From NCBI RefSeq assembly GCF_024362205.1, contig NZ_CP101462.1:2260501-2324500 (forward strand): DNA of 64,000 nucleotides. The letters run 5' to 3'. Source of the stretch: Exiguobacterium aurantiacum. Its GTDB lineage: Bacteria > Bacillota > Bacilli > Exiguobacteriales > Exiguobacteriaceae. Each line of letters begins with the position of its first letter. Positions within the stretch are counted from its first letter, which is position 1. Below are positions 18,582 to 64,000 of this stretch, piece after piece. Position numbers and translations under genes: made by a program. Under the pieces are notes generated by a model that saw nothing but the letters and a program-made list of their open reading frames with translations, was not told the origin of the DNA and ran no database searches.

Positions 18582-19503
18582 GATGTACAATCACGCTTTC
18601 CATGCGATCGGCGATGGCTTCAATGAAGCTCCGCTCCGCGTTTGGCATGTTAGGGCGCGCGTAGTGAACGCCGAGGCGGTCACAGACGACTTTACATTCC
18701 ACGTCGTTATCGAAGAGCACCTCGAGGTGATCCGCGACGAATCCGACCGGCGTGTAAACGAACGCTTCATAACCATGCTTTTCATAAAGTTCAGCCGTCA
18801 AATCTTGGACGTCCGGTCCGATCCACGGGTCAGGCGTATTGCCTTCCGACTGCCAACCAACCTCATAGTTCGGTACACCCGCCGCTTGGGCGATTTTGTC
18901 CGCCGTCTCTTTCAATTGATCCGGATACGGGTCGCCGCCTGCCAAAATTTTCTCTGGGAGACTGTGCGCCGAGACGATCAAGCAAGCTTTCTCAGCCGGT
19001 ACCGGCAAGTTCGCGAACGTCGCTTTGATGGCTTCCGCCCACCAGTTGATGAATTTCGGCTCATCGTACCATGATTCAACCGAACGAATCTCGATGCCGA
19101 ACTTCGCAGCTTCTTCATGCGCCCGGCCGTTGTACGACTTGACGCTATATGACGAGTAATGCGGGGCCAATACGACCGACACCGCTTCTTTGATGCCGTC
19201 GTTCGCCATTTGCGCGACCGCATCTTCTACGAACGGTTCGATATGCTTGAGCCCGATATAGAGCTTGAACTCGATCTCACCCACGTGGCGCTCGTTCAAG
19301 ATGTCACGGAGCGTCTCCGCTTGGTCGATTGTGATCTTTGCGAGCGGCGACACGCCACCGATGGCCTCATAGCGCTCCGTCAAGTCTTGGAGTGCTTCCG
19401 GTGAAGGTTTGCGGCCATAACGGATGTGTGTGTAGTAACGCTCGATATCTTCAGGTTTGTATGGTGTCCCATAAGCCATTACGAGTAATCCGACGGTTTT
19501 CAT
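18574..19503 (-). CDS. hemH: Coproporphyrin ferrochelatase (HemH/CpfC)
   Basis: 309-residue ferrochelatase inserting Fe2+ into coproporphyrin III. Seen: N-terminal [23 protein letters not shown], catalytic His in [13 protein letters not shown], and the acidic metal-side segment [17 protein letters not shown]. It is soluble and of monomeric length, like Bacillus HemH. ATG 19503 overlaps the hemE stop (ATGA). The final enzyme of this route, HemQ/ChdC, is not in the window. Confidence 0.95.
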
Positions 19504-57396: not shown

Positions 57397-57470
57397 TGGT
57401 TTTTTTCTTTTACTTTGGAAAATCAACATTTTTCATTTCGACTCAAATTTTTACATTTTACATAGAACAA

Positions 57471-57536
57471 AAAAAAGACCCTAGCCTCAGCTAGGATCTA
57501 CGGATACCGGTGGTCGGAGTCGAACCGACACTCCAG
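57471..57536 (-). repeat. attachment-site repeat, copy 1 (tRNA-Leu 3' end plus terminator)
   Basis: 66 bp identical to 62329-62394. On the minus strand it reads the T arm (GTCGGTTCGACTCCGAC), acceptor 3' half CACCGGTA, then a terminator hairpin CCTAGCTGAGGCTAGG with T-run. No anticodon or 5' half is present, so it is a displaced tRNA 3' fragment left by integration, not a functional tRNA. It marks the left boundary of the AT-rich island. Confidence 0.85.
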
Positions 57537-58476: not shown

Positions 58477-58627
58477 CTGTGTAGTGCAAAATAGGAGTGC
58501 AGAAGTGTGCAACGGAAACGTACACAACTCTGCACTCCTATTTTAGAAAAGAAAAAGGACTTGCCAGCAACCATAATCTCACCCTAACGTTTAAGTTGCG
58601 AAACAAGAACGTTAGGAGATGGAAGGA

Positions 58628-60064
58628 ATGCTAGCAATGTCCGATATCAATTGTATCAAATTTCTTAGAAACCACAAATCTCATTCAATCAATCGAATCG
58701 CTAAAAATCTAGACCTCAATTGGAGGACGGTAAAAAAATACGCGGATTCAGCTCAATTGCCAAGCGAAACCATTCGCCCCAAGAGGGGCATGATGTACGG
58801 AACGAAATGGGGCGAGATGGTCGAAGATTGGTTGACAGAGGATCAGATGCTTCAGAAAAAGTTGAGACGAACGAATAAAAAGATTTATGAAACGCTGGTG
58901 GCGAACGGATTCGAGGGCTCTTATCGAACGGTGTGCAATTTCATCAAGAACTGGCATATGACAAGCGAAGAGGAAAACGACACAAGGCATGAACGACTGC
59001 AGCACCCTCCGGGTGAGGCGCAGGTGGATTTCGGGACGATGGAAGTCGTCAAAGATAGTCATGCGGTCGATGTGAAGTGCCTCGTCATGAGTCTGCCCTT
59101 CAGCAACCGTACGGCAGCCGTCGCCCTCCCCGCAGAAAACCAAGAGTGCTTCCTGACGGGACTCAAAATGCTTTTTGAAGAAATCGGCGGTGTGCCGCAA
59201 CAACTCCGAATTGATAATCTCCCCGCGGCAGTCATCCAACCGCGAACGACGAGGGAAGAGGCGATCTATACCGATGCTTTCATGCAGTTCATGGCTCATT
59301 ATGGATTCCAAGTCCAAAGCTGTAATCCTTACAGCGGGAACGAGAAAGGAAGTGTCGAGAACAAGGTCGGATACGTTCGATACAACTTTCTTGTCCCGGC
59401 CCCTGTCATGCATGATTACGATTCGATGAACCGACAGCTCGCAGTTTCCCTACGGGACGACATGGAGCGAGTCCATTACGAAAAGCATGTGCTGATCCGT
59501 GAGCTGTTCGAAAAAGAGCAGAGACATCTATTGCGATTACCTCAAGAAGACTTCCCCGTCTTCAAGGAAGAACTGTTCAAGGTGAACAAGTACGGCGAAA
59601 TAACGATCGATAAGACGAAAGTCTTGATCCCTTCAGGGGCTCGTCATGGGCAAGTACGCGCCATCTTAAGGTGGGATTCGATGAAGATTCTCTCACTTCA
59701 CGGAGAAATCCTTTACGAAGAAAAACGTCCCTACATGATGACAAAGCGTGCGCTCCCATGGGAAAACATCATCAGCACTTGGCACAAGAAGCCGAGAAGC
59801 TTCGGGCACTCCCGTTATTCCGAATATCTGCCGGGTAGAATCAAAGAGTACCTGGGCGTACCCAACTTACTCGTTCGGCAGGAAAGACTGGCCTGGATCC
59901 GAGCCAAGCTCGCACTCTATCCAATCCTCGAGATCAATGAACGCCTATACGAGCTACTGAGCGAGGACGACGATCCAGCCGTGGTTGAGGACCATCCTTA
60001 TGATGTGGATTGGAGCAAGTACGATAGCCTGAATCGGCCTTGGGGAGAAGGTGGTGCAGTATGA
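58628..60064 (+). CDS. istA: IS21 transposase IstA
   Basis: 478-residue DDE transposase. N-terminal helix-turn-helix (SINRIAKNLDLNWRTVKKYADS), then catalytic residues in QVDFGTMEV, LRIDNLPAAV and GNEKGSVENKVGYVR, and a C-terminal beta-barrel. ATG 58628 has AGGAG 9 bp upstream; Met codons at 58619 and 58637 are alternatives. Overlaps istB. Confidence 0.93.
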   Translation: MLAMSDINCIKFLRNHKSHSINRIAKNLDLNWRTVKKYADSAQLPSETIRPKRGMMYGTKWGEMVEDWLTEDQMLQKKLRRTNKKIYETLVANGFEGSYRTVCNFIKNWHMTSEEENDTRHERLQHPPGEAQVDFGTMEVVKDSHAVDVKCLVMSLPFSNRTAAVALPAENQECFLTGLKMLFEEIGGVPQQLRIDNLPAAVIQPRTTREEAIYTDAFMQFMAHYGFQVQSCNPYSGNEKGSVENKVGYVRYNFLVPAPVMHDYDSMNRQLAVSLRDDMERVHYEKHVLIRELFEKEQRHLLRLPQEDFPVFKEELFKVNKYGEITIDKTKVLIPSGARHGQVRAILRWDSMKILSLHGEILYEEKRPYMMTKRALPWENIISTWHKKPRSFGHSRYSEYLPGRIKEYLGVPNLLVRQERLAWIRAKLALYPILEINERLYELLSEDDDPAVVEDHPYDVDWSKYDSLNRPWGEGGAV

Positions 60065-60777
60065 GCCTAAAAGAAATGTGCAAATCGCTCCGCCTTGCCT
60101 ATGTCGCTGAAATCTATGAATCGATTCCAACTGAATCCCCTGAAAAGTTTCTCACGGAGCTTTTCTCAATGGAAATGCGCCTCCGCGAGGAAGCGAAAGC
60201 GCAACGGTTAATCAAAAAGGCTAAATTCATCAACAACAAGTCACTCGACGATTATCACTGGGGCAATCACATCTATTTCCCGAAGCATTTGGATAAGGAC
60301 GAACTGACCTCATTGAATTTCGTCGAGCATTCACAGAACGTCGTTCTGACAGGGTCCCCGGGGACGGGAAAGACCCATTTGGCCATCGGACTCGGGAGAG
60401 AAGCTTGTCACAAAGGTTATGAGGTGAGGTTCTTCCGGGTCTCCGAGCTCGTAGAGCAACTTAACAAGGCCTGGAGGGATGGGAAGCTGAGCAGCTTCCA
60501 TTCACGTCTCGAATCGGCAGACCTGATCATTTTGGACGAGATGGGATACATCCCTCTCACAAAAGAATCTGCGGAACTCCTGTTCCATCTCATCACTGAC
60601 TGGTATGAGCGAAAGAGCTTGATCATCACGTCCAACCTTGAGTTCAGCCAGTGGAATCGCATCTTTGGCGACGCGCGCCTAACGGCGGCACTCGTCGATC
60701 GCGTCATCCATCACGCTCACATATTAAATTTCACAGGTGACAGTTATCGTGTCACGCATGCGTTGTCGAAACACTAA
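60061..60777 (+). CDS. istB: IS21 helper ATPase IstB
   Basis: 238-residue AAA+ ATPase that selects targets and stimulates IstA. Walker A TGSPGTGKTHLA, Walker B LIILDEMGYI, sensor ITSNLEFSQW, and the C-terminal RLTAALVDRVIHHAHIL. ATG 60061 overlaps the istA stop as ATGA. Confidence 0.94.
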   Translation: MSLKEMCKSLRLAYVAEIYESIPTESPEKFLTELFSMEMRLREEAKAQRLIKKAKFINNKSLDDYHWGNHIYFPKHLDKDELTSLNFVEHSQNVVLTGSPGTGKTHLAIGLGREACHKGYEVRFFRVSELVEQLNKAWRDGKLSSFHSRLESADLIILDEMGYIPLTKESAELLFHLITDWYERKSLIITSNLEFSQWNRIFGDARLTAALVDRVIHHAHILNFTGDSYRVTHALSKH

Positions 60778-61141: not shown

Positions 61142-61558
61142 TTAGCTTATTCCTAGCCCATGGCGTTCCCTCATTGAGGTTTCGCCATCGACCAGGATTT
61201 TATAGGAGTCGTGTACGATCCTGTCGAGAATTGCGTCCGCGATTTGGGCCTGTCCTAGCTTCGAATGCCATCCCTCGGGTGCGAATTGGGAACAGAAGAT
61301 GGTCGAGGAACGCTTCAACCGTGCCTCAACGATTTCCAACAGATGCATCACATGCTCCTGTGGGTGCTCGGTGAGGAGCCATTCGTCAAGGATCAGGAGG
61401 TCGATCGTCCGATACTTGTGGATTAGCTTCCTGAAGCTGCCGTCCGCCTCGTATTTCGCCACCGCGAGCTCGTCCAATAGTTCAGGCAGCCGGATATACT
61501 TTACCTTGTGGAATTGGCGACAGGCCTGGACGGCCAAAGCGTTCGCCAACCATGTTAG
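61142..61558 (-). pseudogene. 5'-truncated istB of a second IS21-family element
   Basis: A frame of about 138 codons encodes the C-terminal two thirds of an IstB: ...TWLANALAVQACRQFHKVKYIRL, Walker B IDLLILDEWLL, sensor-type TIFCSQF, and IADAILDRIVHDSYKI. The N terminus including the P-loop Gly-Lys is missing; homology stops at the last residues of Walker A near 61558. Different in sequence from the intact istB at 60061. No istA is present, so it is a dead remnant. Confidence 0.85.
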
Positions 61559-61686
61559 ATTTCTAGTTAAATGTATGTTTCAACATCAAATAGGAGTTTA
61601 GGTACCGATGAAAATTCATCTCCTTCACACGTTATTATCAACCTTACTCGGTTCTTTTCAAATTATGTAGGGCGTATCTTCATCAG

Positions 61687-62311
61687 TCAGATGTACTGAC
61701 GAAGAGAGCCATATGATACTTCTTCACATTGGAAGGTCACCTTCATTAAGTTGATCCGTGAGAGTAGATCACTCCGATTGATGTCCATCTCTCGTTCTCT
61801 CACCTTACTGACTATATGTTTTATGTACAGACTTGCAACTGATCCTCTAAAATAACTCTTCACCTAGATCATGACGAAGTGCAGTCAATGACAGCAACTT
61901 CATGATGATGTTCATTGTGTTAGTTGATGTTCCCATTTACATTTCTACCTCGTTTGAAGTGATTGCTTCAGTCTGATTACTCTCTAGAATAACCTTCAAT
62001 GGACCGTTACCTCGAAGCGAGATTGAGTACGTTACGAGATCATCACATGGAAAATTGAGCAAGAAGTTTGTGATTGTACAGTTCCCTTCATAACATTTAC
62101 CCGAAGGCATCTAAAGATAGACATCAACCATTCTCAGAATTAATAAACGCTGTCTCAAGTTCCTCATATGCTTTATATGATTCTATATAAGCACCATCAG
62201 CATCAATCGTATTAGCTTCCAAGCCAGGAAGCGACTCATTCCAGAACATATCAATATCCTTCAACGTTGCAGTAATAGACTCTGCCGAATAATAAGCGAA
62301 GATTATTATTA
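61687..62311 (-). pseudogene. Run of decayed coding fragments
   Basis: No intact gene, but several short minus-strand frames look coding. 62311-62124 reads SAESITATLKDIDMFWNESLPGLE...ELETAFINSENG with no start. 62110-61937 reads MPSGKCYEG...LVTYSISLRGNGPLKVILES. About 61936-61850 reads MNIIMKLLSLTALRHDLGEELF. 61863-61687 reads SVASLYIKHIVSKVREREMDINRSDLLSRINLMKV. The last two join by a frame change. Families not recognised; 61559-61686 shows nothing. Confidence 0.4.
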
Positions 62312-62328
62312 ATTAGTTACATATAAAC

Positions 62329-62394
62329 AAAAAAGACCCTAGCCTCAGCTAGGATCTACGGATACCGGTGGTCGGAGTCGAACCGACACTCCAG
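62329..62394 (-). repeat. attachment-site repeat, copy 2
   Basis: 66 bp identical to 57471-57536: tRNA-Leu T arm, acceptor 3' strand and terminator. Here the tRNA homology continues further (see 62363-62413). Confidence 0.85.
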
Positions 62395-62413
62395 AGGAAC
62401 ACGATTTTGAGTC
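62363..62413 (-). pseudogene. 3' half of tRNA-Leu (CAA), displaced fragment
   Basis: The minus strand reads GACTCAAAATCGTG, a variable arm GTTCCTCTGGAGT, the T arm and CACCGGTA. This is a tRNA-Leu with anticodon CAA from the anticodon loop to the discriminator. The 5' anticodon-stem partner is wrong and the D arm and acceptor 5' half are absent, so it is not functional. It is what integration into the tRNA 3' half leaves behind. Confidence 0.8.
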
Positions 62414-62531: not shown

Positions 62532-62930
62532 TTACGCAATGTACTTATTAAATCGAGCGAGATTCTTACTTTTATAGTAATGAATCAATCGTTGCTCATG
62601 AATTAACGCATCTCTTCGTTCTGCATACTCTGCCACGATCTCATACTCTAAGTTACCAGACTGCATCATATTTCGATGCTCAACATTCCGACGATTCGTA
62701 TATCTTCTCATTCGATACCAAACACCACTACCAACATAAACGACTTCTCCATTCTCTCGGTGAAGATAAACAATGTATTGATCTGTTTGTCGTAGCTCAT
62801 TGGGATCAAGTTGATACTTCTTTATTAAACCAATTACTTTCTGAAACGACAATCCATATATTTTTGCGATGTCCTCATTTGTCATTTTTTCTTTAAGGTA
62901 TTGTTCGAGACTTTCTTTACTTGGAAACAC
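62532..62930 (-). CDS. GIY-YIG-like nuclease with N-terminal HTH
   Basis: 132 residues. N-terminal helix-turn-helix (MTNEDIAKIYGLSFQKVIGLIKKY), then a GIY-YIG-type fold: YIVYLHRENGEVVYVGSGVWYRMRRYTNRR (second motif VYVG, conserved Arg), and the putative metal Glu in ALIHEQRLIHYYKSKNLARFNK with a C-terminal Asn. GTG 62930 has AAAGGTG 8 bp upstream. Related small proteins are homing-type endonucleases or phage/MGE nucleases. It lies just inside the right-hand island segment. Confidence 0.7.
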   Translation of the reverse strand: MFPSKESLEQYLKEKMTNEDIAKIYGLSFQKVIGLIKKYQLDPNELRQTDQYIVYLHRENGEVVYVGSGVWYRMRRYTNRRNVEHRNMMQSGNLEYEIVAEYAERRDALIHEQRLIHYYKSKNLARFNKYIA

Positions 62931-63000: not shown

Positions 63001-63081
63001 TAAGAAGTTATCTAATTTCTTAAATAGAAAATTAAATAACTTCTTAAATAACATATTCAGTTGGACCTCTATATATAGAGG
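63001..63081. repeat. Inverted repeat and palindrome in AT-rich intergenic DNA
   Basis: Arms TAAGAAGTTAT (63001-63011) and ATAACTTCTTA (63036-63046) form an 11-bp inverted repeat; 20 bp on is a perfect 16-bp palindrome CCTCTATATATAGAGG (63066-63081). Located between the 165-residue gene and the GIY-YIG gene, in the promoter position for the latter. Could be operators or mRNA hairpins. Confidence 0.65.
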
Positions 63082-63103: not shown

Positions 63104-63601
63104 TTATGTTTTTGGCAGAGCTCTCAGCCATTTCATATTTGCGCACTGTCCAGCAGCCATCATAACTTCTTCAGTCATAACTAAAGGCTGAAACTCTAGC
63201 AATCCACGTTCTAGCTCTTTTTGAACTGACTCTTGATTGACTGGCTTAATAACAATCGCCTCCATATCTTCTACTTCTCCAATTTGCTGTAGATACTTAT
63301 AAATAACTCCTTTGTAGTTTTCTTCACCGTCTAAGTGATGAAGCCCATCAACATCTTCAAGAAATACAAAGTCGAATCCACTCGGCTTCTTATAATCCGG
63401 AGACTTTTTCTCCACTTCAGCTAAGCTTTCCAAATCTTCAATCTGATATTCATTCAATGACCCTAATTTTACCCCCTTAATATCCTTAGGATTAATGATG
63501 CAGGTTACTGGATAGAGAAATGTAGCAGTTCCTTCTGATGCTAACTCTAGACAAATATTGGTTATAAATTGCGCGCTTTTTGATTCAAATTGATTATTCA
63601 T
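63104..63601 (-). CDS. Protein of unknown function (165 aa)
   Basis: Soluble, mildly acidic, no TM: MNNQFESKSAQFITNICLEL, central FLYPVTCIINPKDIKGVKLGSLNEYQIEDLESLA, FDFVFLEDVDGLHHLDG, and a C-terminal EVMMAAGQCANMKWLRALP. ATG 63601 follows AGAGGT. AT-rich island gene. Unrecognised. A neighbour with an abortive-infection-like domain lies upstream on the same strand but behind a terminator. Confidence 0.65.
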   Translation of the reverse strand: MNNQFESKSAQFITNICLELASEGTATFLYPVTCIINPKDIKGVKLGSLNEYQIEDLESLAEVEKKSPDYKKPSGFDFVFLEDVDGLHHLDGEENYKGVIYKYLQQIGEVEDMEAIVIKPVNQESVQKELERGLLEFQPLVMTEEVMMAAGQCANMKWLRALPKT

Positions 63602-63678
63602 TGTCTAATACCTCTTTCATTTTTTATCAACTTCCCCCCAGTTATATCGAACGTTTGTATTTTGTAAATTAAAACACA

Positions 63679-63709
63679 AAAAAAACTCTCCTTTTTTTCA
63701 GGAGAGTGA
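63679..63709 (-). terminator. Terminator of the abortive-infection-like gene
   Basis: Stem ACTCTCCT/AGGAGAGT with A-rich loop and T8 on the minus strand, 12 bp after the stop at 63721. Confidence 0.9.
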
Positions 63710-63720
63710 GAATAAATTCA

Positions 63721-64000
63721 TTATCTAACTTTTTGTTTCGCTTCTTGTTGATACTTATAGGTGTGAAACAAAAAGTTACAAATAGTAATAGAAGAGTTTA
63801 CCGCCATTACCGCATGATGCCTTGATGCTTTTACCGTTGGAAGGTGTGAATCTCCAGATAAATTTCTTATCTCGGCCAGCCCCTGTATAACATTGTTAAA
63901 CCCACTGAGAATTCGATTAAGACTCTCTTCGAACTTTTTCGCTGCCAGACTTTCTTCATTTTCAACACCACTCTTAGTATCAACTTTCTCCATGTTCAAG
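63721..64000 (-). CDS. Abi_C-like (abortive infection C-terminal) protein, possibly partial
   Basis: Frame open to the right window edge. The visible part is EESLAAKKFEESLNRILSGFNNVIQGLAEIRNLSGDSHLPTVKASRHHAVMAVNSSITICNFLFHTYKYQ, close to the C-terminal domain of abortive-infection proteins (IRNxxGxxH, then HAxxAVN and TY). ATG 63993 is a possible start, but only 7 bp upstream are visible, so whether a longer N-terminal domain exists cannot be told. It would be anti-phage cargo of the tRNA-Leu island. Confidence 0.6.
   Translation of the reverse strand, partial: LNMEKVDTKSGVENEESLAAKKFEESLNRILSGFNNVIQGLAEIRNLSGDSHLPTVKASRHHAVMAVNSSITICNFLFHTYKYQQEAKQKVR

Follow-up and report, generated by a model that had tools for sequence, protein, structure and literature searches.

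A candidate two-layer defense cargo in a phage-satellite-like element of Exiguobacterium aurantiacum: an MmeI-type restriction-modification gene beside a putative AbiJ-type HEPN gene

Introduction

At its right-hand end, the 64,000-nucleotide stretch of the Exiguobacterium aurantiacum genome analyzed here (the window; G000:C1:2260501-2324500) breaks off inside an Abi_C-like gene. A reading of the sequence alone had placed this gene in a tRNA island and joined it to a 165-residue protein and a GIY-YIG-like nuclease as the likely site of an undescribed defense module. We wondered with which of its neighbors the Abi_C gene belongs, what its product may do and what kind of DNA carries it. The sequence beyond the window end was read from the same genome (L003, whose coordinates are window positions minus 54000, and L004, which begins at window-equivalent 74001). 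The features needed for the argument are the following.

62361..62413, no strand: copy of the attachment site, matching the 3' part of tRNA-Leu(CAA) (L004:2049-2132) over 53 identical nt
62532..62930, minus strand: GIY-YIG-like gene, 132 residues; fixed in the element, at its att-proximal end
63104..63601, minus strand: 165-residue gene, family not recognized; behind the hairpin, with its own ribosome-binding-site-like sequence, just inside the edge of the cargo slot
63111..64000, no strand: in-window part of the variable cargo slot, which continues to about window-equivalent 67408 (L003:13408); from blastn breakpoints against G016 and G004
63685..63707, minus strand: intrinsic-terminator-like hairpin with T run, 3' of the Abi_C gene and ahead of the 165-residue gene
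63721..64000, minus strand: C-terminal part of the Abi_C gene, a putative AbiJ-type HEPN gene; the open frame runs out of the window
63844..63867, minus strand: stretch encoding the HEPN-type motif R240-NLSGDS-H247, located by counting from the gene start
L003:9721-10584 (to window-equivalent 64584), minus strand: whole Abi_C gene, 287 codons from GTG
L003:10572: TTG, probable start codon of the Abi_C gene (codon 5), giving 283 residues
L003:10588-13290, minus strand: MmeI-type gene, 900 residues; beyond the window, inside the cargo slot

Reading along the minus strand, the Abi_C gene is followed by the hairpin, the 165-residue gene, the 132-residue GIY-YIG-like gene and the attachment site.

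Results

The Abi_C protein has a likely HEPN domain

The Abi_C protein matched Pfam PF14355 (Abi_C) over residues 187-273 with 54.7 bits against a curated cut-off of 24 (E 1.1e-14), and the PADLOC AbiJ model, which carries no given cut-off, over residues 40-277 (E 8.1e-20). Together, these profile matches rule out a chance resemblance and bear out the label given by the sequence-only reading, which had called for just such a search and had named the lack of an Abi_C match as grounds for giving the label up. Pfam found no domain other than Abi_C in the protein, such as an ABC ATPase.

AlphaFold2 predicted a confident, all-helical structure (pLDDT 87) from 63 aligned sequences, that is, from the 72 Abi_C sequences described below less nine rows from plasmids and G genomes. 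Foldseek with this model returned no match at E 0.001 or better, and a sequence search of the PDB with the protein returned no relative at E 0.1. When model residues 126-284 were aligned to the Foldseek candidates with VIA-align, the best eleven rows had 113-123 residues aligned and Z scores of 9.0-12.7, the top value lying just below the Z of about 13 that helical bundles may reach without kinship. Eight of the eleven have HEPN or Csm6 in their titles, unlike 1ufb, 2q00 and 2jpu. The highest scores belonged to 1ufb (Z 12.7), sacsin HEPN (12.6), TM0613 HEPN (12.2), ST0689 HEPN (12.0) and 4nqf HEPN (11.2), followed by 2q00, 2jpu, one Csm6 and three HEPN-toxin entries down to Z 9.0. Lower rows held MtlR (7.8), another Csm6 (7.4), and DrrA and LinB (6.5), and plainly other proteins, such as vinculin, begin at Z 6.2. 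Both MtlR and DrrA (3l0i) are counted as HEPN proteins in the excerpted text of a survey (PMC3710099). Residues 240-247 of the protein, R-N-L-S-G-D-S-H, fit the Rx4-6H motif. Because of the order of these rows and this motif taken together, the modeled C-terminal domain likely adopts a HEPN fold.

How well is the motif kept? Across 72 sequences (71 profile matches of 230-320 residues and the protein itself), H247, H257 and E162 are invariant (72/72), and D245 is kept in 71 and N241 in 70. R240 is kept in only 47, with serine in its place in 22 and alanine in three, so that some relatives probably lack the canonical R/H pair, which the protein studied here has. The AlphaFold2 model also contains a helical N-terminal domain (about residues 1-126). 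Compared with the ten best-ranked relatives, the N-terminal 126 residues are 12-21% identical and the remainder 38-47%, a contrast that would suit a fast-changing sensor fused to a conserved effector, by analogy with the model in the excerpted survey (PMC3710099).

The gene next to Abi_C beyond the window encodes an MmeI-type enzyme

Type IIL restriction-modification (RM) enzymes methylate one strand and cut about 20 nt away. The 900-residue protein encoded upstream of the Abi_C gene carries all five Pfam MmeI domains in one chain (PF20464, PF20465, PF20473, PF20466 and PF20467: nuclease, spacer, methylase, target recognition domain (TRD) and C-terminal domain). It keeps the NPPF methylase motif and the nuclease residues D65/E75/K77 (D..ExK), which we take to be D70/E80/K82 in MmeI numbering. 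The PADLOC type IIG model PDLC03598 matched it with E 0, and residues 4-899 align to crystallized MmeI (PDB 5hr4). Specificity residues R745, D767, K800 and D802 correspond to MmeI 751, 773, 806 and 808, and Y636/K639 (MmeI 642/645) and A768/R804 (MmeI 774/810) are kept. From the target-recognition code of the MmeI family (PMC4833311), its residues predict the target N-C-G-R-A-G, versus TCCRAC of MmeI, with C2 called from Y636 and K639, G3 from R745 and D767, R4 from A768 and R804, then A5, and G6 from K800 and D802. Position 1 lies outside the code, which as excerpted holds no usable rule for it, and the position 1 residues (K717, T731, E732) differ from those of MmeI. One residue counts against the pattern: Thr752 of MmeI, described as well conserved in the same excerpt, is V746 here.

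Only 3 nt separate the stop codon of the MmeI-type gene from the GTG at which the Abi_C frame opens, and 15 nt separate it from the TTG of codon 5. The junction reads TAGGAGGTGA TTTTTGAA TTG, with the TTG 8 nt beyond TAGGAGGTGA, which suggests that translation begins at this TTG and not at the GTG. The ribosome-binding-site-like stretch of the Abi_C gene overlaps the stop codon of the MmeI-type gene. On the other side, a hairpin with an 8-pair stem and a T run lies at 63685-63707 (minus strand), where the sequence-only reading had seen a terminator between the Abi gene and the next one; as a sequence feature it is there. The fold has a z of -2.0, with 7 of 200 shuffles equally good, and the four terminator-like sites found by scan compare with 2.7 (sd 1.6) in shuffles, so their total is not above chance. 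Promoter-like sites in the region were fewer than in shuffles (10 versus 18.9), and we claim no promoter. The operon partner of the Abi_C gene thus appears to be the MmeI-type gene beyond the window and not the 165-residue gene, with the two genes presumably transcribed together.

The in-window neighbors are a cargo gene behind the hairpin and a core gene

At the limits used, the 165-residue protein matched no family in Pfam, PADLOC, NCBIfam or PHROGs, and searches of phages, plasmids and viral contigs yielded no relative; a PDB sequence search gave a best E of only 0.69, and a single-sequence model (pLDDT 48) was not used. Its gene lies in the variable slot, with its stop codon at the very edge. 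It is intact in one of 398 genomes of the class, its own, and did not turn up in housekeeping contexts; wide occurrence there was what the sequence-only reading had named as refuting its proposal. The other matches in the 398 genomes were a decayed, stop-ridden copy in G016, which adjoins another methyltransferase and has no Abi_C gene with it, and a match in G175 (E 2.3e-4) that we took as chance, since it has four stops and overlaps unrelated frames. The pairing of this gene with Abi_C in other islands, which had been suggested as a check, did not appear: a search over the frames of the 91 sources with Abi_C relatives gave one match, its own.

For the 132-residue protein, Pfam gave no GIY-YIG match and PHROGs only weak endonuclease matches; its G207 orthologue matched PF01541 at E 0.0014, below the curated cut-off. 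The protein is 97.7% identical in G016, 93.2% identical in G004 and matched in G207 at E 1.3e-49, and the gene recurs in each of the four elements read, irrespective of cargo. Thus, the GIY-YIG-like gene is adjacent, as had been noted, but its label is weak and it is a core gene of the element and not cargo, which rules it out as a member of a module. Between this gene and the cargo edge, 63001-63046 form a 46-nt imperfect palindrome (83%), a possible operator or recombination point.

The genes lie in the cargo slot of a phage-satellite-like element

The 3' part of tRNA-Leu(CAA) is repeated over 53 nt at the two ends of a 13.7-kb element, with the intact tRNA about 13.7 kb from the copy in the window. 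The tRNA island of the sequence-only reading is therefore real, but its tRNA is tRNA-Leu(CAA) and not the tRNA-Gly in the window. The element carries genes for an integrase, a 428-residue PHROG 2467 protein, a portal, a protease-capsid fusion and a TP901-type tail tube, then an 82-residue gene, the cargo and the GIY-YIG-like gene. Capsid-forming PICI carry their own terminases; here none was recognized among the ten element proteins scanned (Pfam, PHROGs and other profiles; a 303-residue frame near the integrase was left out). The capsid gene was found at E 1e-20 in 3 of the 38 genomes of the order, its own included.

Two congeneric genomes, G016 and G004, carry the same element at the same tRNA, with att repeats. 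Among the three elements, core proteins are 84-100% identical and core DNA 84-97%, and the blastn core alignment with the sister elements stops at L003:13409/13411 and at L003:9111/9100. Between these points, the cargo is exchanged. The slot studied here (4.3 kb) holds the 165-residue, Abi_C and MmeI-type genes; in G016 it holds a 446-residue N6/N4 methyltransferase, a 291-residue protein without assignment and the stop-ridden relative of the 165-residue protein; and in G004 (L023:9989-13370) it holds genes for proteins of 160, 210, 326 and 365 residues, none of which matched Pfam or PADLOC at E 0.01. The fourth element read, from G207 in another family, combines tRNA-Leu(CAA), an integrase, a capsid gene (split in two frames), an att repeat and the same core order. 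A relative of the 82-residue gene comes ahead of its slot, in which stand an MmeI gene (68% identical) and genes for 162- and 209-residue proteins, and the GIY-YIG-like gene comes after it. The 209-residue protein, encoded downstream of MmeI, has the motif RNEFAH and matched RiboL-PSP-HEPN at E 0.0013, below the cut-off.

Next to the present element we also saw remains of an older related one: the 79 nt at 57458-57536 are 96% identical to the attL flank, and 61557-62289, outside attL, is a decayed copy (82%) of the tail-tube and 82-residue genes. Within this remnant, 58619-60777 and 61142-61549 would, by appearance, be a transposase/ATPase pair of the IS21 type and another ATPase gene, truncated. 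Inside the intact element, L003:18460-19990 is short of long open frames over about 1.4 kb and contains internal repeats (18584-18677 and 18868-18966, 81%); it is largely conserved in the sister elements and is a possible replication origin.

Abi_C relatives adjoin type I genes in some loci and stand without them in others

At E 1e-5, Abi_C matched in 8 of the 398 genomes of the class, its own included. Scanning the genome collection gave 82 relatives, from which 80 loci were kept (the Abi_C frame was not called in four of these), and the profile search gave 88 matches over 91 sources. Phage records held no Abi_C relative and viral contigs two. The ten best-ranked relatives are all from Bacillales by record titles, and no type I or MmeI gene stands in the stretches read around them. 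In five of the ten (L031, L032, L034, L036 and L037), tRNA-Leu(CAA) lies 385-3517 nt upstream of the Abi_C gene; a related integrase is present in L032, L034 and L036, and the last also has the 428-residue protein. By sequence, these five loci are likely elements of the same kind; no exact second copy (at least 20 nt) of the tRNA end was found in them, some being contig ends. L035 carries a relative of the 132-residue GIY-YIG-like gene. HNH-type nuclease genes lie directly beside Abi_C at L034:4555-5277 (Pfam HNH_2), L035:2001-2723 (by similarity to L034) and L024:7915-8553 (Pfam HNH), and in L035 an NgoPII-type endonuclease gene follows about 2.3 kb further along.

Type I RM genes were found near Abi_C in 10 of the 80 loci, as the direct neighbor in nine and across an intervening frame in L058. 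In type I operons, Abi_C either separates hsdS from hsdR or directly follows hsdS, and in six loci (L044, L046, L048, L063, L078 and L109) it starts at most 15 nt from, or overlaps, the hsdS stop. A like order is annotated in Allocoleopsis, and hsdMSR-abi is annotated in Salimicrobium and found by similarity in G100. We compared 99 of 100 genes next to Abi_C with 99 of 129 genes more than 4.5 kb away. In PADLOC, the near genes gave 346 families, with type I specificity and methylase commonest among the first 25 listed (up to 5 members per model). The far genes gave 58 families; among the first 25 listed, type I methylase models had one member each, type II methylase, PD-Lambda-2_B, PDC-S32 and LmuB were single matches, and mad2 had two. 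The type I methylase counted among the far genes probably comes from L058, which has a frame among those members. Pfam agreed, with ResIII (6), Methylase_S (4) and HSDR_N (3) among the first 25 families listed for near genes and, among the 25 listed for far genes, mainly metabolic families plus a single N6 methylase. Defense genes thus also occur further from Abi_C, but the type I signal adjoins it.

MmeI and Abi_C form a rare pair

Are MmeI and Abi_C then a general pair? The MmeI-type gene had no match in any of the 80 Abi_C loci, and the flanks read around MmeI contained Abi_C in none of the 12 other genomes of the class with MmeI. In eight of these 12, a shared frame of about 500 residues lies behind MmeI, which speaks against a general Abi position. 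Viral contigs held no MmeI relative. We read 15 MmeI loci on plasmids and phages, out of 261 plasmid and 6 phage records, and judged them mainly by deposited annotation, which is incomplete for plasmids; one had Abi_C beside MmeI. A general or fixed pair therefore finds no support, and the combination is a rare one.

The one other case is pPME5 of Pseudomonas mendocina, where Abi_C lies 10 nt after an MmeI gene whose product is 54% identical. This Abi_C protein matches PF14355 (4e-13) and has no PADLOC match; the profile of the family studied here does not match it, and it matches the family members L076 (E 1.6e-15) and L058 (E 6e-6). By sequence it is a distant relative, and MmeI and Abi_C were probably brought together on two or more occasions. 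One Eco57I-type RM operon also carries a relative of the pPME5 protein. Elsewhere, an MmeI-type gene overlaps a TIR-domain gene by 4 nt on a Deinococcus radiophilus plasmid (L131:5001-8266), and a phospholipase-D-type gene lies 8 nt after an MmeI-type gene on Methylorubrum and Methylobacterium plasmids (L137:2995-6860 and L142:2995-6860). The remaining plasmid and phage loci had, by annotation, nothing suggestive next door. Suicide-type genes behind MmeI recur in these loci, a pattern that may be suggestive.

Discussion

The explanation that we favor, with moderate confidence, is that the slot carries two layers of defense in one operon of a phage-satellite-like element: a type IIL RM enzyme and an AbiJ-type HEPN protein. 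In the first layer, the single-chain MmeI-type enzyme would mark its own target by methylation and, on incoming DNA that lacks the mark, cut about 20 nt from the site. In the second, the fast-changing helical N-terminal domain of the AbiJ-type protein (about residues 1-126) would act as the sensor, and its C-terminal HEPN domain (about residues 127-284) would cleave RNA and so halt the cell when a phage passes the first layer. Most likely, the Abi protein would rely on its own sensor and be independent of the MmeI-type enzyme, because relatives occur without that enzyme.

Several other readings overlap with this one, so that the weights we give them are not exclusive shares. The close spacing and possible translational coupling of the two genes would also suit an arrangement analogous to PrrC-EcoprrI, a precedent described in the excerpted source (PMC2610378), in which the MmeI-type enzyme would bind and silence the HEPN protein until phage inhibition of restriction freed it. 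Such guarding would fit the place of Abi_C in type I operons, next to hsdS, as well as the pairing of MmeI with a distant Abi_C on pPME5 and with a HEPN-motif protein in G207. We nevertheless regard it as unlikely, if a serious contender: the ten best-ranked Abi_C relatives have no type I or MmeI gene in their loci as read (L035 has the NgoPII-type endonuclease gene nearby), MmeI occurs without Abi_C, and the Abi protein has its own N-terminal domain and lacks a PrrC-like ABC ATPase (Pfam finds Abi_C only). Rather unlikely, too, is that the genes are neighbors by modular cargo exchange only, each a complete defense gene with no functional link. Slot cargo does differ wholesale between elements, MmeI stands alone in the G207 element, and Abi_C occurs in tRNA-Leu(CAA) loci, three of them with a related integrase; against mere exchange stand the close spacing, the overlap of stop codon and ribosome-binding-site-like stretch, and the linkage of Abi_C to RM genes, repeated across phyla.

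It is improbable that the HEPN-like domain is no nuclease, so that the Abi protein would act by binding only or is decaying. This would agree with the replacement of R240 in 25 of the 72 relatives and the lack of a solved relative by sequence, but the protein itself has R240, N241, D245 and H247 in an intact frame, and N241, D245, H247 and H257 are kept in 70-72 of 72. Least credible, with a very low probability, is the module proposed by the sequence-only reading, in which Abi_C, the 165-residue protein (for example as toxin and antitoxin) and the GIY-YIG nuclease would act together. The genes are adjacent on one strand. However, a hairpin separates Abi_C from the 165-residue gene, the search over the 91 sources returned that gene only at its own locus, its decayed relative sits beside a different methyltransferase, and the GIY-YIG-like gene belongs to the core; we therefore reject it. 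What stands of that proposal is that the cargo is of a defense type and that the next kilobases were the place to look; its membership does not, as the partner is the MmeI-type gene.

How does the favored reading, with its type IIL enzyme and AbiJ-type protein, relate to known systems? The Abi protein resembles AbiJ-family HEPN proteins in its PADLOC AbiJ match, Abi_C domain, predicted HEPN-like fold, Rx4-6H motif, helical N-terminal domain and linkage to RM genes; it differs in that its gene is linked to a type IIL enzyme. According to the excerpted survey (Anantharaman et al., 2013, PMC3710099), AbiJ HEPN proteins occur in RM operons, where those lacking an N-terminal domain outnumber those with one. 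The N-terminal domain present here makes this the rarer arrangement and weighs against the favored reading. The enzyme is like MmeI (PDB 5hr4; PMC4833311, excerpt) in its five domains, nuclease and methylase motifs and full-length alignment, and unlike it in the target that its residues predict and in the HEPN-type gene next to it. As with PrrC-EcoprrI (PMC2610378, excerpt), a gene for a HEPN-type suicide RNase, a role that is predicted here, is tied to RM as a possible second line; PrrC, however, has an ABC ATPase part and a type Ic partner, whereas here there is no ATPase domain and the RM enzyme is type IIL. The satellite-like element shares with capsid-forming PICI (PMC11389934, excerpt) integrase, portal, protease and capsid genes between att sites and a fixed slot whose defense-type or unassigned genes differ per host. 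Hosts, gene set and attachment site differ, and no terminase was among the ten proteins scanned.

Excerpts of earlier work describe HEPN proteins in RM operons as a second line (PMC3710099), backup effectors in BREX (PMC12839542), Abi_C in Tn7-like cargo (PMC8649781) and cargo hotspots of satellites (PMC9122126). HEPN proteins in RM operons and defense cargo in satellites are thus already known; the type IIL combination and this slot may be new: in the open-access literature searched, we found no combination of type IIL with Abi_C or abortive infection and, in that on satellite hotspots, no paper on this slot by title. A more speculative and quite doubtful idea is that MmeI-type enzymes have an exchangeable downstream effector position, in which the RM enzyme would be a guarded sensor whose inhibition by a phage would unleash the effector, carrying the PrrC logic into satellite-borne type IIL systems. 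Effectors in that position would include Abi_C HEPN (here and on pPME5), RiboL-PSP-type HEPN (G207), TIR (Deinococcus) and phospholipase-D-type (Methylobacteriaceae) proteins.

With just two genes, the locus lends itself to asking whether a HEPN suicide protein is functionally coupled to a restriction enzyme, and related settings in which each gene occurs without the other supply natural controls. The cargo slot, common to four elements in two bacterial families, is a place to seek defense genes, and the proteins of the G004 cargo are candidates.
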